Program-made: the position numbers and the translations under genes
The notes under the pieces: model-generated
Seen by the model: only the letters and a program-made list of their open reading frames with translations
Database searches by the model: none
What the model was told of the DNA's origin: nothing
Assembly (NCBI GenBank): GCA_027487315.1
Contig: JAIYDW010000102.1
Span: 1-34,784 of the forward strand
DNA length: 34,784 nt
Direction: 5' to 3'
Source of the DNA: Verrucomicrobiaceae bacterium
Lineage (GTDB): Bacteria; Verrucomicrobiota; Verrucomicrobiia; Verrucomicrobiales; Verrucomicrobiaceae
Shown: positions 3,276 to 18,723 of the stretch, in pieces
How the letters are laid out: each line of letters begins with the position of its first letter
Numbering within the stretch: the first letter of the stretch is position 1

Positions 3276-3797
3276 ATGTTCGACAACCTCCGGCAGGACA
3301 TCACCCGCAATCTGCGCGACTACGGCCCGCAGTCGGCGTTGCGTCGTGCCGCGCTCTGCTTGACCCTCAATAGCATCCATGCGGTGGCTCTCATCCGCCT
3401 CCAACTCTGGTGCGCTCGGCATCACCTGCCTGGCATCTTAGCCAGCAAGATCCTTTTCTGGTTCTTCAAAATCGAAATCAGCAGCAAAGCCACCATCGGT
3501 CCCGGACTCCGCCTCCCTCACCCCATGGGCATCATCATCGCACCCCACTCTGTGATCGGTGCCAACTGCGACCTCTACGCTGACGTCCGCCTCGTCCTTT
3601 CTCATGGCCGCAAGCACGGCCCGCATCTCGAAGACGGCGTCTTCATGGGAGATGGTGCCAAAGCCGTCGGCGCTGTACGCATCGGCGCTAAAGCCGTCAT
3701 CGGCGTCTCCGCTGTCGTCACTCGTGACATCCCCGCAAGTGCGGTGGCAGCGGGAGTACCTGCCCGTGTCTTACATTCTCAATCAGTAGCCTCATGA
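3276..3797 (+). CDS. Hexapeptide-repeat acetyltransferase, serine acetyltransferase-like
   Basis: This 173-residue protein has a helical N-terminus and then left-handed beta-helix hexapeptides from about residue 70: IGPGLRLPHPMG, IIIAPHSVIG, GVFMGDGAKAVG and AVRIGAKAVIGVSAVVTRDIP. It ends with the usual AAGVPARVL segment. The order resembles serine O-acetyltransferases and the related colanic-acid type WcaB acetyltransferases, which form trimers using acetyl-CoA. It is shorter than biosynthetic CysE (about 270 residues), and it sits between sugar-assembly genes. O-acetylation of the polysaccharide is therefore more likely than cysteine synthesis. It begins 3 bases after the previous stop and overlaps the next gene by ATGA. 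Confidence 0.85.
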   Translation: MFDNLRQDITRNLRDYGPQSALRRAALCLTLNSIHAVALIRLQLWCARHHLPGILASKILFWFFKIEISSKATIGPGLRLPHPMGIIIAPHSVIGANCDLYADVRLVLSHGRKHGPHLEDGVFMGDGAKAVGAVRIGAKAVIGVSAVVTRDIPASAVAAGVPARVLHSQSVAS

Positions 3798-5761
3798 ACA
3801 TACTCGTCGTCTATCCTTACATTCCCTTTCCGCTCGATCGCGGAACTTATCAGCGCACCTTTCACCTCCTCCGTGAACTCGCCCGTGAGCACACCGTCGA
3901 CCTCATCGCTCTCAGTGAAAAAGGTGAGCGATTGAATCAACGCCACGTCTTTGAATCCTTCTGCCGTGATGTGCGCTTCGTTCCCTTCACGCATCCTGCC
4001 TGGCCCAAGCTCATGCCGGATCGCCTCCTCAACCGGACGCCCTCCACCATCCGCCACTGGAACCTGCCTCAACTCGCTGATGCCATTCACGACCAACTCG
4101 CCCGCAACCAATACGACCTCGTCCATGTCTGCGACATCGTGCTCGCCCAATACTTTCTCAAAGAGCACCAAGACATCCCGCTCTCCATCGACCGCAGCCG
4201 CGTGGACTTGCAGTTCCAACTTCAACAAACCGCCTTCAACACGACCTCTCTAAAGGAAAAAGCCCTCGCCTGGGAAAACATGGCGAAGCTCTGGTTCTAC
4301 GAACGTCGCATCGCCAAGAGATCTCAACTGCAAGTCCTCTGTGGTCCGGACGACGAAGCCTTCGTCCGACGCCACATCAGCAAAAAGGTGCCGCTCAAGG
4401 TCGTCGCCAACGGAGTCGATCTCGACTTCTTCAAGGCAGAAGTGCTTGAGCAACCTCTCGCCGCCAAACCATCAATCCTCTTCTGTGGTGCCATGGACTA
4501 CACGCCCAATGTGGACGCGTTGCGCTGGTACTTTGCGGAAATTCATAAGCGCATCCTCAAACAGGTGCCTGACCTCCAGGTCTTCATCGTCGGCAAGTCA
4601 CCGCTGCCGGAGGTCCAGGCCTATGCCTCGCTCCCCGGAGTCATCGTCACCGGAAGCGTCGATGACGTGCGGCCCTACTATCGAAAAGCCTGGCTGCAAA
4701 TCGTGCCACTGCGCATCGGCGGCGGCACTCGCCTGAAAATCGTAGAAAGCCTCGCCATCGGCACCCCAGTCGTGTCCACCAGCATCGGTGCCCAAGGCCT
4801 CGACCTGATCCACGGTGCCAATGCGCTTCTGGCGGACGACGCCAAGTCCTTCGCTGAGCAAACCGTTCGTGCTTTGCACAACTCACCCCTCCGCCAGCAC
4901 CTCAGGTACAATGGTATTGCCTTAGCCAAAGAGCGCTTCGGTTGGAAAGGCATCGCTGCCAAACTCAGCGCCGAATACCGACGGTTCTCGCCCAACTCAA
5001 GTCCTCGCATTCAACTCCTCGACGTTCCCTTTGATGCCGTCACCATGCCCGAAACACTGGATCGGATCGATGCAATGATCGCCAGCCAAAAACCTCACTA
5101 CATCGCCACCGCAAACGTCGATTTCTGCGTCCAGGCAAAGAGCGATCCCGAATTGCACAGCATCCTGAAGCAAGCCGATCTCGTCGTTTGCGACGGCACT
5201 CCTCTCGTCTGGCTCTCACGACTGCTCGGCCGCTCGCTCCCAGAACGGGTTGCCGGTTCGGATCTCGTGCCTCAGTTGTTGGCCAAAGCCGAACAAAAAG
5301 ACTGGCGTGTCTTTTTCCTCGGCGGTCAGGAACAAGTCCTCGAAAAAGCAATTCAGAATGTCGGATTGAAGCATCGCAACCTCCGCATCGTCGGTGCTTA
5401 CTCACCTCCTTTCGCCCCCCTCGACCAAATGCCTCATGAGGAAATTTGCGCCCGCATTCGGGAGGCCAAGCCCGACGTGCTCCTGGTCTCCTTCGGGTGT
5501 CCCAAACAAGAGAAATGGATTGCCCGCAACTACCAAGCCGCAGGGGTCCCAGTCTGCATCGGCGTCGGCGCAACCATCGACTTCCTCGCCGGATCGATGA
5601 AGCGCGCCCCTCGCTGGATGCAAGTCATCGGAGCCGAGTGGGTCTTCCGTCTCGCTCAAGAACCCCGGCGCCTCTTCAAACGTTACGCCACCGACTTGTT
5701 CGTCTTTGGTCTCAGTGCCGCAAAGGAACTTCTCAAAAACCCTCAAGCCTCCCGCGCATGA
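3794..5761 (+). CDS. Fused GT4-GT26 (WecG/TagA/CpsF-type) double glycosyltransferase
   Basis: Two complete-looking glycosyltransferases share one 655-residue chain. Residues 1-400 form a GT4 enzyme with the N-terminal MNILVVYPYIPFPLDRG, an internal LFCGAMDYTPNVDAL and the donor-site stretch PLRIGGGTRLKIVESLAIGTPVV. Residues about 405-645 match the GT26 family, with TANVDF, LVVCDGTPLVW (Asp467), ERVAGSD and FGCPKQEKW. GT26 enzymes in enterobacterial and teichoic acid pathways transfer N-acetylmannosamine-type sugars to lipid-linked acceptors. The fusion would let consecutive sugars be added by one protein. It overlaps both neighbours by ATGA, which supports translational coupling. The frame is continuous, with no sign of a lost stop. 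Confidence 0.93.
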   Translation: MNILVVYPYIPFPLDRGTYQRTFHLLRELAREHTVDLIALSEKGERLNQRHVFESFCRDVRFVPFTHPAWPKLMPDRLLNRTPSTIRHWNLPQLADAIHDQLARNQYDLVHVCDIVLAQYFLKEHQDIPLSIDRSRVDLQFQLQQTAFNTTSLKEKALAWENMAKLWFYERRIAKRSQLQVLCGPDDEAFVRRHISKKVPLKVVANGVDLDFFKAEVLEQPLAAKPSILFCGAMDYTPNVDALRWYFAEIHKRILKQVPDLQVFIVGKSPLPEVQAYASLPGVIVTGSVDDVRPYYRKAWLQIVPLRIGGGTRLKIVESLAIGTPVVSTSIGAQGLDLIHGANALLADDAKSFAEQTVRALHNSPLRQHLRYNGIALAKERFGWKGIAAKLSAEYRRFSPNSSPRIQLLDVPFDAVTMPETLDRIDAMIASQKPHYIATANVDFCVQAKSDPELHSILKQADLVVCDGTPLVWLSRLLGRSLPERVAGSDLVPQLLAKAEQKDWRVFFLGGQEQVLEKAIQNVGLKHRNLRIVGAYSPPFAPLDQMPHEEICARIREAKPDVLLVSFGCPKQEKWIARNYQAAGVPVCIGVGATIDFLAGSMKRAPRWMQVIGAEWVFRLAQEPRRLFKRYATDLFVFGLSAAKELLKNPQASRA

Positions 5762-6987
5762 AAATCGCCATCTCCACCAGCGTCATCCAACGCGGCAAAA
5801 CCGGCGTCGCCCAATACGTCTTCGCCCTCGTCCGATCCCTCCTCGAACAAGCCCACGAGCACGAATTCCATCTCCTCGTCCTCCAGGAAGACCTGCCACT
5901 CTTCGACTTCGTCGGAGATCGCATGAAAATCATCCCCATCGCTGAGAAATGGCGCCCCGCCGTGAAGAACATCTTCTGGCACCAGTTCGTTCTGCCGGGA
6001 TGGCTAAAAAAAGAGGGCATCGATGTCCTCCACGTCCCCAGCTACCGCCGAATGCTCTGGCGCGCCCCATGTGCTACCATTGCCACCATCCATGACCTCG
6101 CCCCCTTCCACGTGAAGGGCAAATACGACCTCGCGCGGATGATCTACGGTCGCGTCTTCGTCAAGTGGCTCGCAAAAAGACAGGATCAAATCATCGCCAT
6201 CAGCACAAACACTGCAACGGACATCCAGAGGTTCCTTGGCATTCCACTCGAGCGCCAGCGTCTCATCCTGAATGGTCTGGATCACGACCGCTTCCACCCC
6301 GCGCCCTCCCAACCTTTTCCTGGTCTTGAGCAACCCTACTTCCTCTACATCTCCCGCCTCGAACATCCGGCGAAAAACCATGTTCGCTTGATCGAGGCGT
6401 TCAACCAATTCAAGGCCAAAACGGGTTCGCCTTGGTTGCTTGCCCTCGGGGGAAGCGATTGGCACGGTGCCGAACACATCCATGCCGCCGCCGCCGCATC
6501 GCCCTTTGCCGCTGACATTCGATTCCTCGGCTTTGTCAAAGACGCCGACCTCCCAAACTTGTATCGGTCCGCTGCGGCTTTCGTCTATCCTTCGCTGTTC
6601 GAAGGCTTTGGCATGCCTCCCGTCGAAGCCATGGCCTGCGGATGTCCCGTCATCAGTTCGGCCGCTGGCTCTCTGGCTGAGGTGATTGGAAATGCCGCCC
6701 GTGTCATCGATCCGGAAAGCGTCGACAGTCTGTTTCAGGCCCTCCACGCCTTGCATTCCAGTCCGACCACGCGTCGTCGCCTCGTTGATGAAGGCCTCCG
6801 GAATGCTCGGCGTTTCAACTGGAACACCAACGCGGCCCAAGTCCTCCAGACTTGTCGGCTGGCGCGTCGTCCACCTCCAGTTGGGGGGATTGTGAGGGAG
6901 CGGGCAAAGGGGGATGGTTCACGTGTCATCCCTCCTTCCCATGTCCGATTCATTGCTCCACTGGAACCTCGCTCGACGCCCCTTTGA
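5758..6987 (+). CDS. GT4 family glycosyltransferase with an extended tail
   Basis: This 409-residue enzyme starts at the ATGA overlap with the preceding fusion gene. The N-terminus MKIAISTSVIQRGKTGVAQY, the middle YFLYISRLEHPAKNHVRLIEAF and the donor-site block PSLFEGFGMPPVEAMACGCPVISS are classic GT4 features. The fold should end near RFNWNTNAAQVLQ. The last 40 or so residues are basic and proline-rich, and the final 47 bases overlap the next gene. A longer in-frame start exists at 5446, but it lies inside the preceding gene and was rejected. The tail may be real, or it may reflect a lost earlier stop or a sequence error. Confidence 0.9.
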   Translation: MKIAISTSVIQRGKTGVAQYVFALVRSLLEQAHEHEFHLLVLQEDLPLFDFVGDRMKIIPIAEKWRPAVKNIFWHQFVLPGWLKKEGIDVLHVPSYRRMLWRAPCATIATIHDLAPFHVKGKYDLARMIYGRVFVKWLAKRQDQIIAISTNTATDIQRFLGIPLERQRLILNGLDHDRFHPAPSQPFPGLEQPYFLYISRLEHPAKNHVRLIEAFNQFKAKTGSPWLLALGGSDWHGAEHIHAAAAASPFAADIRFLGFVKDADLPNLYRSAAAFVYPSLFEGFGMPPVEAMACGCPVISSAAGSLAEVIGNAARVIDPESVDSLFQALHALHSSPTTRRRLVDEGLRNARRFNWNTNAAQVLQTCRLARRPPPVGGIVRERAKGDGSRVIPPSHVRFIAPLEPRSTPL

Positions 6988-7792
6988 GGCCGCCTGGGAC
7001 GCTCGCTTTTTTTACCGCGGCACCCAGCACTTGGAGGCCTTGGACCGTCTCATGTATGTCGTCCTCGAAGGCGGCATGAACTTTGGCTTGCTGACAGGCG
7101 AAATCGGTTGTGGCAAAACACTCGTCAGAGCCGTCCTTCAACACCAACTGGCCGCTTCTGATTTCCGCTTCGTCACCATCGAAAACGGCGGTTTCACTGT
7201 CGAGGAGTTGTCGCTGACGATCCTCTCCCGGCTGGCTCCCGTCGGCAGCACGCTCCCTCAGGGGCGCCTCGCTCAGATGGACCGGCTTCAAGGTCTCCTC
7301 AACGAGCACGCCGATGCAGGACGGCAGGTCGTCATCTTGCTCGATGAAGCTCAAGACATGGGACCCGAGACTCTCAGTGGCCTGCGTTGGATCACAAACT
7401 TTAATGGCGGTGGCCGCAACCTCGTGTCGTTGCTGTTGATCGGACAGCCCAATCTTCGTTCGCTCGTGGAGTCGGTGCCAGCCTTGGATCAACGCGTCGG
7501 CCTGCGCTTCCATCTTCAACCGCTCGCATCGGTCTCCGACTCGTCTGCCTACCTCGCCCACAGGCTCCATGTCGCCGGGCATCCAAATGGAGAACTGTTT
7601 GATCAGGAGGCGGCTGCCCTCATCCATCAGCTTTCACGCGGCATTCCGCGACTCATCAATCGGCTCGCCAAGCTCTCTCTCGAGCACGGTTGGCTGACCG
7701 AATCGGATCGTCTCACCGCTGAGCATGTTCACTCCGTTTATCGCGATCTGCAGCGCCACCACGTCGCCAACCTCAGCCAATCCTGCCCATGA
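6941..7792 (+). CDS. ExeA/GspA-type AAA ATPase of an exopolysaccharide/exosortase locus
   Basis: This 283-residue P-loop ATPase has Walker A GEIGCGKT at residues 53-60, Walker B VVILLDEAQD at 130-139, a sensor strand LLIGQP at 165-170 and the GIPRLINRLAKLSL segment near the C-terminus. The start MSDSLLHWNLARRPF resembles the usual ExeA opening, in which a short helix leads into the RPF motif, so the ATG at 6941 is preferred over 6914. It has no membrane segment and no peptidoglycan-binding domain. ATPases of this type are known beside chain-length determinants in exosortase-linked exopolysaccharide operons. It overlaps the next gene by ATGA, and that gene's kinase-like domain lacks a P-loop. 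Confidence 0.9.
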   Translation: MSDSLLHWNLARRPFEAAWDARFFYRGTQHLEALDRLMYVVLEGGMNFGLLTGEIGCGKTLVRAVLQHQLAASDFRFVTIENGGFTVEELSLTILSRLAPVGSTLPQGRLAQMDRLQGLLNEHADAGRQVVILLDEAQDMGPETLSGLRWITNFNGGGRNLVSLLLIGQPNLRSLVESVPALDQRVGLRFHLQPLASVSDSSAYLAHRLHVAGHPNGELFDQEAAALIHQLSRGIPRLINRLAKLSLEHGWLTESDRLTAEHVHSVYRDLQRHHVANLSQSCP

Positions 7793-10700
7793 CAAACGAT
7801 TCGGACTTTAGCCTCAGCGCCATCCAGCAAAAGCGCAAGGGTGCCGCCTTCAGGCCTCCGCTTCTGCGTGATGAGGCCGATCCCAAGGGCCATCCCCTCG
7901 ATCCAATCACCGAGACTTCCTTGGGCTCATCTCATGCCGCTCCTCGTGGTTTCCTGCTTCCTTTCGACCCGCTGCTCGTTCTCGATGCCCTCATGAAGCG
8001 TCTGCCTTGGATCCTTGGTCTCGGCTTGCTCGCAGCGGGCATCCTGGCTTGGGTGGGCTGGAACCGCTTTGAAACTCGTCACATTGCCACCGCCCAATTG
8101 ATCAAAACAGAGCCTTCCTCGCCCCTGCGTCATTCCGATAGTGGCGAGCCCTATCAACCTCACGAACTTCCCATCCCCACCCTCATGGCGCTCATGCGCG
8201 GATCGGCTGTCTTGGAAAAGACCAGCGAACGCTTGGACAAAAAGCTCACAGAGGGCCAGGTCAAAGCCGGTCTCGTCATCACCCCGGAGCGCAATTCCGA
8301 CATCTTGCGTGTCTCCTTTTCCTCCGACAGTGGCTCGCAGGAAGCCGTCTCAGCCTTGCGCGCTTACATCGAGGAAGTCCTGTCTCTCGCTCGCGACATC
8401 CAAAAACATGACGCATCGGAAATGGTCGAGCTGTTGGCCGATCAGTCCGCCATCGCAGAAGCCGAGCTCCTCAAGGTCAATGAGGAATTGCTCGCCTACG
8501 CCCGCCGTGAGGAGTTGATTGATGCTGATAAACAAATGGACGCCTACCTCGGCGAATTGGCTAACCTCAGCCTCAAGTTCGAGGCCACCCGACTCGATCA
8601 CGAGACTCTCGATCTCAGAATTCAGTCCATCGAAAAAGAACTCTCAAAAGTCAGCCCGGCCGCTGCAAAACTCCAGCAGGCCCAGGACGAACTCGCCCAG
8701 GCCCGTCTTCGTTACACCGATCAGCATCCCGCCATCATGGAGGCGGTGGACCGCGTCGCTGCTTTTCAAGCCACCCTCAACGATGATAAACCCAGGATCG
8801 ATGCCCCGCCTCGGCCAGGCGAAAGCACCGTCGCTGAAAGCCTCTACATGGAATTGGTTCGTTACCGGTCCGAGAAACAGGTTCTTGGCGAGCAATTGCA
8901 AAAGCTCACCGCCATCCGCGGCGCGCTCAGCGCAAAGTTAGAGTTGTTGCCTCGAAAGGCCCTCGAATACGCCCGCATCAAGGCACGGCAACAGGATCTC
9001 GAAACCAGTCGGACCCTGCTCGCTGCTCGTCACCGCGAAGCCTTGATGCACTCGCAGAACGCCCAAGGTTCTTTCCGTCTTTTGGGTTTGGACCGGCCTC
9101 AGGATGTCGTCATTGTTCGCCCCACCCAAAAACTCGCCCTGTTTAGCCTTGGCGGCTTTGCAGCGGCGGCAGGAATCACTTCGCTCGTCGTCACGGTCTT
9201 GTGCCTCTCAGACCGGCGCATTCGAACCGTGGCCGACCTTCGACGCGTCACAGGTCTGCCCATCCTGGGTGCCCTGAATGCCGAAGGCAATGGCGACCCC
9301 ACGCTGTGGGCGTTCCAAACCTGGACCCGCCTGCAGCCCAAACTCCTAAGGCCACCCTCCACGCCCGCAACCATCTGCGGTCTCCTCACAAACGATGCCG
9401 TTTCCACCGGCCGCCTCCCCGGCCTGCTCGCTGCCGCTGCCGCCAGTCGTGGACAGTCCGTCATCTTGATCAGTCAGGGCCCAGCCATGTCCGTTTCAGC
9501 TCCTCTGTCCGAAGTGATCGGCTCTCCCGAGCAAGTCGTCGCTCAGTTGACTCGCACACCTCATCAAGTGCTGCATCTGACGCTCGATGATCTTTGGAAC
9601 TGGTCGCCAGAGCAGCGCCAGAGCTGGAACCGGGCTCTTGATCGCTGGTCGCAGCTCCGTGGCACAGTCATTCTCGTCCAGCTTTCGTCTCCAGAATCAG
9701 CCGAAACGTTGCTGGTGGCAGAGCGGCTCCCCAACCTCCTTTGGATCGACCAAAATGCCGCTACCCATCCTGAGAAATTGCAAAATCTCCTCCAAAACTA
9801 TCGGGCCGCAGGCTGCCGATTCGTCGGCGCCATGTTAGACGGTGTGCACACGTTCGGTTTCCAACCTCTAAACAAATGGGCCTTGTCCGCCTGCGCTCTT
9901 GGGTTGGCCTTCAGCCTTCCCGTTTCGGCCCAATCCGATGTCCTGCCACTGGGCCCTGGCGATGCCGTGAACATCACCGTTCCTGGCCGCCCCGAATACG
10001 CCCGCAACGATGTCGCAATCGGCCCGGACGGTTGTCTCACCTATCTTCAGGCGCAAAATCTCACCGCTGCGGGCCTCTCCATCGATCAGCTTCGCACGAA
10101 GCTCATGACCGAACTCCGGCGCTATCACAAAAATCTCATCGTGGTGGTCACCCCCATGACCTTCCAAAGTCGAAAGGTCTACGTGCTCGGCAAAGTAGTG
10201 AAAAAGGGCGCCATCAACCTGGATCGCCCCATGACCGTCCTCGAAACGGTCGCTGAGGCGGGTGGCCTCGAAACAGGGCTGTTCCAGCAAAACACCGTCG
10301 AACTTGCCGACCTCGGACGCAGTTTTCTCATGCGGGGTCAATCCCGGGTCGACATCGACATGGAAGCCCTTTTCTTCAAAGGCGACATGACCCAAAATGT
10401 CCGCGTTCAACCAGGTGACTACCTCTACTTCCCCTCAGCAAACTCGAACGAAATCTATGTCCTCGGTAATGTCAAAATGCAGGGCACCCAAGGGCTTCTG
10501 GCCCACACTTCCGTCCACAGCGCCATCGCTCAGGCCGGCGGCTTCACCCCTCGCGCCTACACCCAGCGTGTCCTGGTCGTTCGAGGTTCCTTTGATAACC
10601 CCCAGACTTTCACCGTCAACATGAGGGCCATTCTCGAAGGCCGCGAAAAAGGCTTCAAGCTTGAGCCCAAAGACATCGTCTTCATCGCCGACAAACCCTG

Positions 10701-10824
10701 GGCCCGCGCCGAAGAACTCCTCAGCTTCGCCCTCAACGCCTTCACCCAGGGCGCCATCTCCGGCTGGGTTGGTGCCAACACCATTCCGCTCATTCAGGAG
10801 GCGATCCTGCCCACCATGCGCTGA
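7789..10824 (+). CDS. Wzz co-polymerase, degenerate BY-kinase domain and Wza export domain in one chain
   Basis: This 1011-residue protein combines parts that are normally separate. Residues 71-91 are membrane segment 1. Residues 92-447 form a Wzz-like periplasmic region with long coiled-coil stretches (about 205-300 and 350-420). Residues 448-473 are membrane segment 2. Residues 475-690 resemble a bacterial tyrosine kinase domain, but the P-loop lysine is absent (NDAVSTGRLPG at 535-545) and the Walker A-prime Asp is replaced (VILISQG). Residues 697-714 are a third hydrophobic stretch ending VSAQS, like a signal peptide. Residues 715-970 match a polysaccharide export domain (LGPGDAVNI) plus two SLBB domains (KVYVLGKV and EIYVLGNV). 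The frame is unbroken. It would control chain length and export across both membranes. Confidence 0.88.
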   Translation: MTNDSDFSLSAIQQKRKGAAFRPPLLRDEADPKGHPLDPITETSLGSSHAAPRGFLLPFDPLLVLDALMKRLPWILGLGLLAAGILAWVGWNRFETRHIATAQLIKTEPSSPLRHSDSGEPYQPHELPIPTLMALMRGSAVLEKTSERLDKKLTEGQVKAGLVITPERNSDILRVSFSSDSGSQEAVSALRAYIEEVLSLARDIQKHDASEMVELLADQSAIAEAELLKVNEELLAYARREELIDADKQMDAYLGELANLSLKFEATRLDHETLDLRIQSIEKELSKVSPAAAKLQQAQDELAQARLRYTDQHPAIMEAVDRVAAFQATLNDDKPRIDAPPRPGESTVAESLYMELVRYRSEKQVLGEQLQKLTAIRGALSAKLELLPRKALEYARIKARQQDLETSRTLLAARHREALMHSQNAQGSFRLLGLDRPQDVVIVRPTQKLALFSLGGFAAAAGITSLVVTVLCLSDRRIRTVADLRRVTGLPILGALNAEGNGDPTLWAFQTWTRLQPKLLRPPSTPATICGLLTNDAVSTGRLPGLLAAAAASRGQSVILISQGPAMSVSAPLSEVIGSPEQVVAQLTRTPHQVLHLTLDDLWNWSPEQRQSWNRALDRWSQLRGTVILVQLSSPESAETLLVAERLPNLLWIDQNAATHPEKLQNLLQNYRAAGCRFVGAMLDGVHTFGFQPLNKWALSACALGLAFSLPVSAQSDVLPLGPGDAVNITVPGRPEYARNDVAIGPDGCLTYLQAQNLTAAGLSIDQLRTKLMTELRRYHKNLIVVVTPMTFQSRKVYVLGKVVKKGAINLDRPMTVLETVAEAGGLETGLFQQNTVELADLGRSFLMRGQSRVDIDMEALFFKGDMTQNVRVQPGDYLYFPSANSNEIYVLGNVKMQGTQGLLAHTSVHSAIAQAGGFTPRAYTQRVLVVRGSFDNPQTFTVNMRAILEGREKGFKLEPKDIVFIADKPWARAEELLSFALNAFTQGAISGWVGANTIPLIQEAILPTMR

Positions 10825-10889
10825 TGCATTCCTCTCCGGATCAATAGGAACTCTGTTGTCAGTCGCCCTGTCGTGTGGCAAATTTTGGG

Positions 10890-11570
10890 ATGCCAGCCAG
10901 CATTTCCGCCCCCGATTCAGCCAATCCCACCCGCCGAATTCTAAAGGTCGCTGTTGTCGAGGATGATCCCACCCTCCGCCTTTTCATCGAGAAGCTGATC
11001 CAGAAAAAGGACAACGACTTCGTCCCCGCTGGCTCGTTTGACAGCGCTGAGAAGGCCGTCGTCCTCCTCAAGGATAAGCCTGACGTCGTCATCGTAGATC
11101 TGGAGCTTCCTGGCGTATCTGGAGTAGAAATGATCAAACAACTCTCCCCGCACATGCCAGGCACCGCCTTCGTCGTCCTGACCATTCACGATGACCCTGA
11201 AAAAGTCTTCGGCGCCCTCCGAGCTGGCGCCCATGGCTATCTCCTAAAGACAGCCAAACCCTCAGACATCGCCGCCGGTATTCGTCAGGCCAGCGAAGGC
11301 GGCGCTCCTCTCAGCCAGGACATCGCCCGCCTTCTCATCCAAACTTTCAAAGAACCCGTCAAAGCCGAGAAAAAAGAGATCCCCGGCCTCACCCCCCGCG
11401 AAAGCCAGATCCTCGAGCGTCTTGCCAAAGGCATGGCTCCCAAGGAGGTCGCCCACGACCTTTCCCTCAGCTACGAAACCGTCCGCGACTACCTCAAAGC
11501 AGTCTATCAAAAGCTCCACGTTCGCTCTCGCACCGAGGCCGTCATCAAATACCTCGAAGCTACCCAGTAG
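10890..11570 (+). CDS. NarL/FixJ-type response regulator
   Basis: This 226-residue two-domain regulator has a receiver domain with an acidic pocket (D25, D26), phospho-acceptor D70 in VIVDLELPG, a Thr/Ser switch in VVLTIH and conserved K110 in YLLKT. After a short linker it has a LuxR-type helix-turn-helix from about residue 157 (LTPRESQILERLAKGMAPKEVA, with the second helix YETVRDYLKAVYQKL). A GTG start at 10875 would add five residues; the ATG is preferred. No partner kinase is adjacent. The truncated sensor at the left edge is one possible partner, 10 kb away. Its position inside the polysaccharide operon suggests it controls that operon, perhaps through the CCCC/GGGG motifs; this is inference. 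Confidence 0.93.
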   Translation: MPASISAPDSANPTRRILKVAVVEDDPTLRLFIEKLIQKKDNDFVPAGSFDSAEKAVVLLKDKPDVVIVDLELPGVSGVEMIKQLSPHMPGTAFVVLTIHDDPEKVFGALRAGAHGYLLKTAKPSDIAAGIRQASEGGAPLSQDIARLLIQTFKEPVKAEKKEIPGLTPRESQILERLAKGMAPKEVAHDLSLSYETVRDYLKAVYQKLHVRSRTEAVIKYLEATQ

Positions 11571-11759: not shown

Positions 11760-12836
11760 ATGAACCGCTGTCTCATCCTCCTAGCCGCCCTCGCCCTGCT
11801 TCCGGTTGCCTGTTCGACCAAATCGCCAAATCAATTCGATGCGCGCGCGCACCCCGCCTCTCAGTCCGTCACCCCGGCCTTCGTGACGGAGGCCGCCCCA
11901 GCAACTCCATCCAAGGATCTCCTTCAACAACCCGCCAATCCCTTTACACTCGGCCCCGGTGACAAACTCGACATCGAAATCCTCGGCGAGACCGGTTCCA
12001 GAGCCGAAACCTTCGTCACTCCCGATGGCAAAATCTACTTCGATCTCCTGCCCGGCATCAACGTCAACGGCATCACCACCAACACGCTCAAGCAGCAGCT
12101 CGAATCAGGCCTCACTCAGTTCTACAAACACCCCCAGGTCAGTGTCAACCTGGTCGATGTGAGCAGCCAGCGCGTCTGGGTTCTTGGGCGCGTCAATCAG
12201 CCGGGCATCTATCCCCTCAAACGCCCCCTCCGCGTGCTGGATGCGGTCTCTCTCGCTGGTGGCCTCTTCACCTCCCGCTTTACCGGCACCACCGAAGAAC
12301 TCGCCGATCTCCAACACAGCTTCCTCGTTCGCAAAGGCGAAATGATGCCCGTCGACTTCCAAAAACTTATCCGCGAAGGCGACCTCTCCCAAAACATTTA
12401 CCTCCAGCCAGACGATTTCATCTACCTCCCTTCCAGCCTCACCAACGAGGTCTACGTTCTCGGCGCTGTGACTGAGCCACGACCCGTCGGCTTCATGAAC
12501 GAAATGAATCTCATGGCCGCTCTGGGTCGGGGACTTGGCCTCCGCCCGGATGCGGATCTCAGTCGCGTCAGCATCATTCGCGGTTCATTGACCAATCCCC
12601 AAGTCGCCACCGTCGACGCTCGTGACGTCATGAAAGGCAACGCCACCAATGTCAAACTCGAGCCGGGTGACATCATCTTCGTCCCCGGTGCCGGCCAGCT
12701 TTCGCTCGCCAGTATCGGCAAAGAAGCCGTTAACACCTTCGTCCGAGTTCTCGCCGCCAGCGAAGGCTCCGCCGCCGCGACCGGGCGCCCAGGCAACGTC
12801 GGCGTCAACGTCCCTCTGAGCGCCGCTACACCCTGA
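11760..12836 (+). CDS. Wza-type outer-membrane polysaccharide export lipoprotein
   Basis: This 358-residue protein begins with a lipoprotein signal, MNRCLILLAALALLPVAC, giving a lipidated Cys18. A longer frame from 11715 would bury that signal, so the ATG at 11760 was chosen. Residues about 60-135 form the polysaccharide export domain (LGPGDKLDIEILG). Two SLBB domains follow, marked by RVWVLGRVNQPGIYPL and EVYVLGAVTEPRPVGF, and the C-terminus is Ala/Gly-rich. Wza-family proteins form the outer-membrane channel for capsule or exopolysaccharide. It closely resembles the C-terminal third of the fusion protein encoded at 7789-10824 (both have an ELADL-x2-SFL block and an SNEIYVLG/TNEVYVLG block), so the two look like paralogues. 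Confidence 0.93.
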   Translation: MNRCLILLAALALLPVACSTKSPNQFDARAHPASQSVTPAFVTEAAPATPSKDLLQQPANPFTLGPGDKLDIEILGETGSRAETFVTPDGKIYFDLLPGINVNGITTNTLKQQLESGLTQFYKHPQVSVNLVDVSSQRVWVLGRVNQPGIYPLKRPLRVLDAVSLAGGLFTSRFTGTTEELADLQHSFLVRKGEMMPVDFQKLIREGDLSQNIYLQPDDFIYLPSSLTNEVYVLGAVTEPRPVGFMNEMNLMAALGRGLGLRPDADLSRVSIIRGSLTNPQVATVDARDVMKGNATNVKLEPGDIIFVPGAGQLSLASIGKEAVNTFVRVLAASEGSAAATGRPGNVGVNVPLSAATP

Positions 12837-15656: not shown

Positions 15657-16481
15657 ATGAAAAAAAATCCCCTCCTATTCCTAACACTCAGTCTCCTTCT
15701 CCCAGCTTCAGCCTCCGCTGCGCTCGTGATTACCTACGCCGAAAAGCCCGACGCCGTGAATTCCACTCTCGTCGGCACCGATGTTTTCAGCTTTGACTCC
15801 CTCAAAACTGGCGCCCAGTCCAATGTCGTCTGGAAAGGTGTCGGTGCCTTCGACCAACTTTTCATCAAGACCGCCGATATCTACGGCGGCGCTCCCAGTG
15901 ATAGGTCACCCAGAGGTTCTCTCTACAGCCTCCAGGGCGCCGGCACCAAGGTGCTTTCCAGCACCCTCACCCTCGATGAAGCCAGTTCCTACTTTGGCCT
16001 CTGGTGGTCCGCTGGCGACGCCCATAATATGCTCCGCTTCTACAACAAAGACGCCCTCGTCGCTCAGTTCACCACCGCCAGCTTGCTTGCCCCCCTCCCC
16101 GGTGAGTACGATGGCAACCCCATCAACCGCTCCCTCAACAGGGGTGAACCCTACGCTTTCATCAACTTCTTCGGCGACGCCGAAACCAGTTGGGACCGCA
16201 TCGTCTTGACCAATAACGGCAGTTCTGGATTCGAGTCCGACAATTACACGACGCGCGTCGAGGCCTGGGACCCCATCGTCGATGGCGCTCTCCCCGGCGT
16301 GCCTGTCGCCATCGTCTCCGGCAAGGACACCAAGCTGGTCACCAAGGACGACCTCAAAGGCACACTCTGGGCAGCCGCCCCCGCCGCTCCCCTCCCGCCT
16401 CTGCCTCTCCTCGTGGTCTTCGGTGCTTTCGCGCTCGCCCGTAGCCGTTTCGCCATGGCACGCGCTCCGCAACAAGCCTGA
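15657..16481 (+). CDS. Exported surface protein with a PEP-CTERM-like exosortase tail
   Basis: This 274-residue protein has a signal peptide at residues 1-21 (MKKNPLLFLTLSLLLPASASA). A beta-rich body follows, including a YFGLWWSAGDAHNMLRFYN stretch that resembles known exosortase-dependent surface proteins from memory. The C-terminus is tripartite: a Pro/Ala motif PAAPLPPLP from residue 242, a short hydrophobic helix (LLVVFGAFALA) and an Arg-containing tail (RSRFAMAR). That layout is the sorting signal cut by exosortases, although the exact PEP triplet is absent. The exosortase gene starts 35 bases downstream, which suggests this is its dedicated substrate. Its function at the surface is unknown. 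Confidence 0.8.
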   Translation: MKKNPLLFLTLSLLLPASASAALVITYAEKPDAVNSTLVGTDVFSFDSLKTGAQSNVVWKGVGAFDQLFIKTADIYGGAPSDRSPRGSLYSLQGAGTKVLSSTLTLDEASSYFGLWWSAGDAHNMLRFYNKDALVAQFTTASLLAPLPGEYDGNPINRSLNRGEPYAFINFFGDAETSWDRIVLTNNGSSGFESDNYTTRVEAWDPIVDGALPGVPVAIVSGKDTKLVTKDDLKGTLWAAAPAAPLPPLPLLVVFGAFALARSRFAMARAPQQA

Positions 16482-16516
16482 TCCGCCCAGTCTTCCTCGC
16501 CACCACGCCGACCGCG

Positions 16517-17899
16517 ATGAGCTCTCCTACCCAGCACCAGTCCATCCGACTCTTGCTGGTCGCCATCGCGGTCGGTTCCCTTCTCTCCCTCTCTCCCTCC
16601 CAGGGCGCCTTCCTCGACCTCACCCGACCCCTCCTCCTCGCCCTCTTCAACGCTTTCGGCATTCCCGCCACCGACTCCGGCGAAGCCCTTGTCATCGGCC
16701 GTCTCAACGTCCCCTGGACCCACGACTGCTCTGGCATCAATTTGCTCGTCATCCTCTTGGCCCTCACCGTCTGGGTCAATCGCACGCAGCCCGCCGGCCC
16801 CCGCTTCTGGCTGCTTCTCGCCTCCGTTTTTCCAGCCGCCATGGTGGCGAATACCCTGCGCGTCCTCTCTCTGCTCGCCTATCGCCACGCTGCCTATCCC
16901 GCCGTCGAAAGCCCCCAACTCCACTACTTCATCGGCTTTGTCTGGCTCGTCCCCATGATCCTTCTCATGGCTCCGCGCGATGGCCGCACCCGCCTTTGCC
17001 GCGCATTCGAGTCCCTCCACGCCGCTGCCATCCTCGCCTGGCTCTCACCCTTGATCTCCAGCCCGGGCGGTCCCTGGCTCGCCGCCGCCGCTCTGCTTCT
17101 GCTTTCGAAGTGCCGCCTCGCCTCCGACCACCTCCCGCTCCGTCTCACGCTCACTTCTGGCTGGCTCGTCGCTGGCTTCGCGATCGGCCTGCTCAGCATC
17201 GAGTCTCTCTGGCTCGTCTGGCTGCTCGTCTGCCCCCTCCTGCTGCCTGTCAGACTTTTCCTTCGTCCCGATTTCTGGCTGGTCCTCGCCGCCGCCCACC
17301 CTCTCCTCATCATGCTTCCCTTCGGCGAATACATCGCTGCCTCCGCTCTCGCCTGGATGCTGTTTCGCACCTTCAAAACCCCCCCTCCCTCACCCGACTC
17401 TCCATTCCCCCTCACCCCCGCCTGGCGCGCCGCTCTCACCCTTACCGCCCTCGCCTTGGCCCTGCCTTTCACCGCTACCAGCCTCTTCGCCACGCCTCAT
17501 TCGCCTCTCCTACCCCCGGCCCATCTCGTCGTTCAGGAAATCGGCGCCCAAGGCTACGAACTCCGCCTCCCCGGCCAGCCAGACTCCATCCGCCTTGTTT
17601 GGTATGCCGCTCAAAACAACGACCGCCACCACACCGTCCAGGTCTGCCTCAAATACCGCGGCCGCGACCTCGTTCCCGTCTCGGACACTCCCTCGGTGCA
17701 ATCCGATGGCCGCCACTGGCTGCGCGAGTTCTTCGTCCAGGATGGCCAACTCCTGCTCTCCTACTCCGACTACGCCCGCCGCACCCTCGCCCCCCGTTCC
17801 CACCCCGGCGCCCACCTCATCTTCATCGCCCCCATGGACGCCCTCACCCCAGCCGAGTTCGACCTCCAAACCCGCTCCCTCGCCACCCAACTCCCCTGA
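16517..17899 (+). CDS. Exosortase with an EpsI-like C-terminal domain
   Basis: This 460-residue polytopic membrane protein carries the exosortase catalytic triad. Cys71 lies in HDCSGINLL, Arg115 in ANTLRV and His136 in HYFIGF, each at or near a membrane helix. Exosortases cut C-terminal sorting signals and are thought to pass the protein to a surface acceptor. Residues about 1-325 are mostly helical membrane segments. Residues about 335-460 are soluble-looking and contain HHTVQVCLKYRGRDLVP, which resembles the H-x-x-E-V-C region of EpsI proteins that accompany or are fused to some exosortases. It lies between its probable substrate and a GT2 gene on one transcript. The exact exosortase subclass was not assigned. 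Confidence 0.88.
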   Translation: MSSPTQHQSIRLLLVAIAVGSLLSLSPSQGAFLDLTRPLLLALFNAFGIPATDSGEALVIGRLNVPWTHDCSGINLLVILLALTVWVNRTQPAGPRFWLLLASVFPAAMVANTLRVLSLLAYRHAAYPAVESPQLHYFIGFVWLVPMILLMAPRDGRTRLCRAFESLHAAAILAWLSPLISSPGGPWLAAAALLLLSKCRLASDHLPLRLTLTSGWLVAGFAIGLLSIESLWLVWLLVCPLLLPVRLFLRPDFWLVLAAAHPLLIMLPFGEYIAASALAWMLFRTFKTPPPSPDSPFPLTPAWRAALTLTALALALPFTATSLFATPHSPLLPPAHLVVQEIGAQGYELRLPGQPDSIRLVWYAAQNNDRHHTVQVCLKYRGRDLVPVSDTPSVQSDGRHWLREFFVQDGQLLLSYSDYARRTLAPRSHPGAHLIFIAPMDALTPAEFDLQTRSLATQLP

Positions 17900-17910
17900 T
17901 CCCCAACACC

Positions 17911-18723
17911 ATGCCTACCCCCACCCTCGGCGTCCTCATCCGATTCTCCGATTCCGCCTCCACCCTGCCAGCCGTGCTCGCAGCCCTCAAATCCCAAACC
18001 CTCCAGCCCGATGTCATCCTCGGCGTGAACTGCGGCAGCACCGACGCTTCCTCCGCCTACATCCGCGCCATCGGCGGCCGCATCGCTCAATGGACCCAAC
18101 CCTACGCCCACGCCAGCGTCCTCAACTTCGGCCTCCGCCTCCTCCCCACCGACCTCGTCCTCATTCTCAGCTCCCACACCGTCCTCGAATCCCCCGACAC
18201 CCTCGCACAAATGGTCGCCGCCATGCGCGATTCCGCCGCAGCCTGCGTCAGCCTCGCTTGGGATGACGATCCCTTCTACAGCGATGCCATCACCTTCGCC
18301 GAACTCCAGCGCAAGGGCCTCCGCTTCGGCTCCTTCTACAGCAACAGCATGGGCCTGATCCGCCGCCGGCACTGGCAAAAAAGCCCCTTCGACGAATCCA
18401 TCCCCACGGCCGAGGACTATGCCTGGGCCATCGAACAACTCAAAAAAGGCCACACCAGCCTGCGTCTGCGCCTCCCTTTCAGCTACCGTCGCGATGGCAC
18501 CTCGCGCGCCGGACCCTTCGCCCGGGTCGTCTTTCACCTCGCCCGTCGGCACTCCCTCAAGGTCACCTGGCTCGGCCCATTCGCCTCCCTCAAACTCCTC
18601 GCCACTCACCACTTCACCCGCCTCCTGCGCCGCACCCCTCCCACCCCAGAACCTCCCACCCTCCCCGCCGTCACCGACCGCTTCACCGCCTGGCTCCTCT
18701 CCCGCTTCGCCCAACCCACCTGA
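17911..18723 (+). CDS. GT2 family glycosyltransferase
   Basis: This 270-residue GT-A enzyme starts 11 bases after the exosortase stop. A much longer in-frame opening from 16282 overlaps the exosortase gene and was rejected. Residues 38-45 read GVNCGSTD, close to the usual NDGSTD nucleotide-binding turn but with Cys in place of Asp. The DxD position reads LSSHTV (about 86-91), as in rhamnosyltransferase-like GT2 members that carry S-x-H there. E168 and D169 in TAEDYAWA match the catalytic ED motif. Its place in the exosortase operon suggests it glycosylates the sorted protein or builds the acceptor; this is inference. Confidence 0.88.
   Translation: MPTPTLGVLIRFSDSASTLPAVLAALKSQTLQPDVILGVNCGSTDASSAYIRAIGGRIAQWTQPYAHASVLNFGLRLLPTDLVLILSSHTVLESPDTLAQMVAAMRDSAAACVSLAWDDDPFYSDAITFAELQRKGLRFGSFYSNSMGLIRRRHWQKSPFDESIPTAEDYAWAIEQLKKGHTSLRLRLPFSYRRDGTSRAGPFARVVFHLARRHSLKVTWLGPFASLKLLATHHFTRLLRRTPPTPEPPTLPAVTDRFTAWLLSRFAQPT

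Follow-up and report, generated by a model that had tools for sequence, protein, structure and literature searches.

The locus described here raises the question of what is made from a gene that carries, in one reading frame, both a Wzz/Wzc-like PCP and a Wza-like OPX: a single chain that links two parts of an exporter, or two proteins. The gene lies on a contig of 34,784 nucleotides from a Verrucomicrobiaceae bacterium (GCA_027487315.1, JAIYDW010000102.1; the window), where it runs on the + strand from an ATG at 7789 to a stop at 10824 with no internal stops and encodes 1011 amino acids (111 kDa) in the order PCP, bacterial tyrosine-kinase (BY) pseudokinase, putative internal signal peptide and OPX (OPX1). 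A preliminary description of this DNA proposed that the inner- and outer-membrane parts of the exporter are thereby placed in one chain at a fixed ratio. We favor another reading, to which we assign a probability of about 0.75: the gene would encode a polyprotein that is cut at the internal signal peptide into a PCP-pseudokinase and a periplasmic OPX1.

Two membrane helices, identified from sequence at residues 72-91 (8002..8061, +; 72-93 in an AlphaFold2 model) and 449-473 (9133..9207, +; 446-474 in the model), flank a periplasmic co-polymerase domain (residues 92-448, 8062..9132, +) that was delimited by NCBIfam, AlphaFold2 and structure alignment and whose long helices span residues 183-241, 246-287 and 347-423. 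The Wzz part of the protein is too diverged in sequence to be matched by Pfam, while the NCBIfam XrtA chain-length determinant model covers residues 164-497 with an E value of 4.5e-16, under the model's own cut-off. The OPX1 part contains a Poly_export domain (residues 718-788, 9940..10152, +) followed by two SLBB domains (SLBB_2, residues 796-880, 10174..10428, +; SLBB, residues 889-933, 10453..10587, +), all above Pfam cut-offs, and a C-terminal helix at the place of the Wza pore helix (residues 974-997, 10708..10779, +), which AlphaFold2 predicts with low confidence. Poly_export and SLBB_2 were matched in 41 of the 41 members scanned, and a sequence search of the PDB matched Wza across residues 716-981. 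Hydrophobic moments along the C-terminal helices were moderate and did not tell OPX1 from OPX2, a separate Wza-like protein encoded in the same cluster.

The AlphaFold2 model of the fused protein, built from 41 sequences, has a mean pLDDT of 81.5 and a pTM of 0.44, a value that leaves the relative placing of the domains open; it replaced an earlier run with seven sequences, in which the mean pLDDT was 66 and the OPX part was poor. Structure comparison aligned residues 61-694 with Wzc, including the two membrane helices and the helical periplasmic domain between them, residues 475-694 with the CapB/Wzc kinases (Z about 19, rmsd 2.8-3.1 over 199-211 residues) and residues 715-969 with Wza (Z 18.2, rmsd 5.1 over 244 residues), with an rmsd of 1.7 for the part at residues 716-884. 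Like E. coli Wzc, the PCP-2a of the Wza-Wzc exporter (PMC12881504), the fused protein carries two membrane helices, periplasmic helical arms and a kinase fold on one chain; unlike Wzc, it lacks working Walker motifs and a tyrosine tail, and its chain runs on through a putative signal peptide into a complete OPX. OPX1 resembles E. coli Wza and the class 3 OPX of M. xanthus (PMC9603273, PMC9601211) in the succession of Poly_export and SLBB domains as well as in PDB sequence and fold matches, but differs from them in having no lipobox, in lying in frame behind a PCP and in having a second, lipoprotein OPX nearby.

The PCP-OPX fusion is made of known kinds of parts, and it is real and conserved. 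The assembly is a draft of 256 contigs, in which a sequencing or assembly error, a frameshift or a pseudogene might be suspected; against this, the same stop-free fused layout is found in 45 distinct relatives, among them a one-contig genome (G014) of the window's family, and on this evidence we rejected such an artefact, whose chance we consider negligible. The continuous 1011-residue frame, the two Wzz-type membrane segments, the kinase-like domain without the P-loop Lys and the Wza-type region with two SLBB domains, all noted in the preliminary description, were each confirmed.

The kinase-like domain (residues 475-692, 9211..9864, +) was defined by alignment, profile and structure match. 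A profile of 28 relatives retrieved CapB kinases in the PDB with an E value of 3.5e-6 and with Walker A and Walker B in register. At the P-loop site, where kinases have GKS/T, most relatives have GEGRST and a minority keeps GEGKST or NEGKST, while the loop is lost among the close kin of the window (NDAVSTGRLP in the window itself); the window's decayed P-loop GLLTNDAVSTGR (residues 531-542, 9379..9414, +) aligns opposite the GEGKST of the best-preserved relatives and lacks the Lys. The Walker A' Asp is lost in the alignment of relatives, and the Walker B Asp is replaced by Glu in most of them and by Gln in the window (VQLSS), so that the fold of a PCP-2a kinase is there while working Walker A, A' and B motifs are missing. 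A tyrosine-rich C-terminal tail was not found in the window, where residues 651-691 contain a single Tyr, nor is there a tyrosine cluster at the end of the PCP of relatives with separate genes. With a BY-kinase fold but neither catalytic motifs nor a tyrosine tail, the domain is a pseudokinase of a known type, represented by the tyrosine pseudokinases EcpK of M. xanthus and HfsB of C. crescentus; PCP-pseudokinases on a single chain, SMc01795 being one, have already been reported (PMC12004946). These proteins share with the fused protein a kinase fold that lacks catalytic motifs and tyrosine tail and serves a PCP; EcpK and HfsB, unlike it, stand alone, and no OPX is reported on any of these proteins. 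Because catalytic loss is common to the fused and separate forms, it is independent of the fusion, and the pseudokinase is older than the fusion. To judge from the missing motifs and tail, the protein would have no phosphorylation cycle of its own, as had been proposed. Conserved tryptophans, in WAFxTW at window residues 507-512 and WxW at 603-605 (alignment A4), persist where the ATP site has decayed, and are perhaps a candidate surface for binding the PCP or the membrane.

Near residue 690, where the preliminary description had envisaged a possible break, there is no stop; the sequence there contains a third hydrophobic segment (residues 697-714) that it did not report. On the basis of joint comparison, weight matrix and model, residues 694-714 (9868..9930, +) look like a Sec signal peptide, LNKWALSACALGLAFSLPVSA, ending in a signal peptidase I motif, with a predicted cut after Ala714 (9930/9931), beyond which the chain continues with QSD. 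In the model, a helix at residues 692-708 is followed by a stretch with pLDDT below 50 (709-716). Across the 45 fused frames the joint has a hydrophobic core and a small-x-small motif, with a basic n-region in nearly all, so that the n-h-c organization and the cleavage motif of a processed polyprotein are conserved among relatives. The uncharged stretch at the joint is also shorter, with a mean of 16 residues, than in the first (20) and second (23) membrane helices.

A plain count of AxA or small-x-A motifs was dropped as a discriminator, since a loose small-x-Ala motif also follows the first membrane helix in 84% of the proteins and the count did not separate it from the joint. A weight matrix built from 24 E. 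coli signal peptides was used for this reason, and the joints were compared with the first membrane helix, which has the same orientation. Median scores were 8.6 for the joints and 2.3 for the first helices of the same proteins (p 1e-9, although the proteins are relatives and hence non-independent). The window joint scored 7.4, with its best site between VSA and QS, and 5 of the 45 joints scored below 5, whereas the E. coli training peptides scored 14-26. Lower joint scores are to be expected, since the joints come from another phylum and the training peptides were scored with the matrix that they had built; the result is thus support for a signal peptide rather than proof. Further support comes from relatives in which the PCP and OPX1 parts are adjoining separate genes. 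In these, the PCP gene stops just past the kinase motif (GAVLN), and the OPX1 gene starts with Met and basic residues in the manner of a signal peptide, as in G268, where MRTPSSLPGCLALIIAFLMPFFVRA is followed by ED; the stretch that matches the joint is there the ordinary N-terminal signal peptide of OPX1. Because the joint resembles a signal peptide in fused and separate relatives alike, the "fusion" is most likely a cut polyprotein. Genes for signal peptidase I are present in the genome. On the other side, cleavage at an internal signal peptide is known for few bacterial proteins, and some helices that resemble signals stay uncut.

Two proteins could also arise if translation started internally, ahead of the signal peptide, with the full-length chain as a minor product. 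The window does offer a Met codon (VGAMLDG) 17 codons ahead of the hydrophobic core, but an ATG falls within 25 codons before the core in just 10 of the 45 relatives, as against 41% at randomly chosen positions of these genes, and a start codon combined with a Shine-Dalgarno match occurs in 4 of 45, as against 13%. Since neither is enriched, internal initiation was rejected and appears very improbable.

The alternative in which the whole chain stays uncut, closest to the original proposal, takes the third segment as a true membrane helix that tethers the OPX to the inner membrane in a fixed-ratio exporter. This is compatible with the single open frame of 45 relatives and with the predicted helix at 692-708, which could cross the membrane, but leaves the signal-peptide features and cleavage motif of the joint, shared with separate relatives, unaccounted for, and meets a difficulty of geometry. 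In the Wza-Wzc structures (PMC12881504), D1-domain loops of Wza contact residues that lie close to the distal end of the Wzc arm. In our model the arm helix 347-423 comprises 77 residues, or about 115 Å, and in the window about six residues separate the cut site from the OPX fold, so that an uncut OPX1 cannot reach a Wza-like position. Moreover, the GxGD motif of relatives lies 11 to 128 residues beyond the hydrophobic core, a spread indicating that linker length is not under constraint, and the fusion has repeatedly been replaced by separate genes. An uncut chain would amount to a new type of exporter, with an OPX ring held at the inner membrane on a third co-polymerase helix and a lipoprotein OPX ring above it; we regard this as unlikely.

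The cluster itself suggests where the outer-membrane part is to be sought. OPX2, a separate Wza-like gene that the preliminary description overlooked (11760..12836, +), was identified by Pfam, NCBIfam and locus comparison and carries the lipobox LLPVAC, the lipoprotein anchor of class 1 OPX proteins that OPX1, whose joint ends VSA/QS, does not have. The fused gene and OPX2 are separated by a NarL-type response regulator (10875-11570). Where related loci extend far enough, OPX1 is nearly always followed by a second OPX, mostly lipobox-bearing. OPX2 is a better candidate for the outer-membrane channel than the fused OPX domain. Given the cleavable signal-peptide features, the short linker and the lipoprotein OPX2, the idea that one chain unites inner- and outer-membrane parts is probably wrong; of the fixed ratio, 1:1 synthesis remains.

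Class-wide searches and domain mapping placed nearly all of the 45 distinct fused frames, which bear out the domain order in other genomes, in Verrucomicrobiae: in the window's family, Prosthecobacter, Phragmitibacter, Limisphaerales and Opitutaceae records. In a sample of the phylum beyond this class, no match had a frame long enough for the fusion, as judged by frame length alone. The locus is patchy: 11 of 57 relatives match at all, and it is absent from three members of the genus to which the window belongs. In a tree of OPX sequences, OPX1 grouped apart from OPX2 with a support of 100. The early OPX1 branches are separate (G053, G037, G048, G086, G050, G213, L111 and L125), and the fused or separate label must change 6 times on the OPX1 tree, which was built without fragments at contig ends, with at least 5 changes forced by supported branches. 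One genome, G216, carries both forms, and in at least two cases (G066 and G150) the parts are divided only by a stop codon and a new start in the same frame. That the form has changed so often suggests that the same functional parts result either way, which is easier to reconcile with cleavage than with a requirement that the chain stay linked. A fused frame at a contig edge in L130, labelled Acidobacteria, may reflect transfer or misbinning; L102 and L103, labelled Akkermansia muciniphila, also carry the fusion and are probably mislabelled assemblies, the listed small-genome members of genus g12 (probably Akkermansia) having given no match in the class-wide search.

Sequence and models show an inner-membrane PCP with a built-in BY pseudokinase, followed in frame by an apparently complete OPX precursor, Sec signal peptide included. 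According to the polyprotein model, upon membrane insertion the internal signal peptide would span the membrane as a third helix, N-in and C-out, and signal peptidase I would cut after Ala714, freeing a soluble 33-kDa OPX1 into the periplasm; the remaining 78-kDa PCP-pseudokinase would stay in the inner membrane and end in a third membrane helix. OPX1 might then form a ring seated on the PCP arms, in the way that Wza sits on Wzc, and polymer would pass from OPX1 to OPX2, the probable outer-membrane channel, a hand-off suggested by gene order only. We infer a stack of PCP, OPX1 and OPX2 that resembles the stacked rings discussed in a model for M. xanthus (PMC9603273). The pseudokinase would serve as a scaffold and would not cycle through phosphorylation, a role already proposed for EcpK and HfsB. 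Synthesis as one chain would yield 1:1 amounts and place OPX1 beside its partner, and lineages could have switched form because fused and separate genes would work alike.

We found no published account of a PCP-OPX fusion in the open-access literature, which is weak evidence of absence; the fusion is apparently undescribed, in agreement with the preliminary description. A comparable case is the cytochrome b/c1 precursor FbcH of Bradyrhizobium: two parts of a membrane complex are made together and are separated by cleavage at an internal signal peptide, although the complex is respiratory and the proteins are unrelated. In many Verrucomicrobiae, then, the two components whose contact lies in the periplasm, PCP and OPX, form one genetic unit, and this unit has repeatedly switched between fused and separate states. 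The fusion points to the OPX that partners the PCP, strengthens the argument that a PCP can function without phosphorylation, and provides a candidate polyprotein from bacteria in which cutting at an internal signal peptide can be tested directly.

The fused gene overlaps by 4 bases an AAA ATPase gene of the XrtA-system type (6914..7792, +; Pfam, NCBIfam), and the best NCBIfam matches of the cluster are of the XrtA/PEP-CTERM exopolysaccharide type, all below model cut-offs. An exosortase-family gene (16517-17899, +; PF09721 match at 16616-16969) overlaps, in another frame, a long ORF at 16282-18723, whose glycosyltransferase-2 match begins only past the exosortase gene. The gene directly ahead of the exosortase (15657-16481, +) encodes a small secreted protein that begins with a signal peptide and whose tail, APLPPLPLLVVFGAFALARSRF, is PEP-CTERM-like. 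The ORF at 3794-5761 (+) joins a GT4-type glycosyltransferase (XrtA-system stp1-like, residues 4-392) to a WecG/TagA glycosyltransferase (residues 461-631), and is another fusion of two usually separate enzymes.
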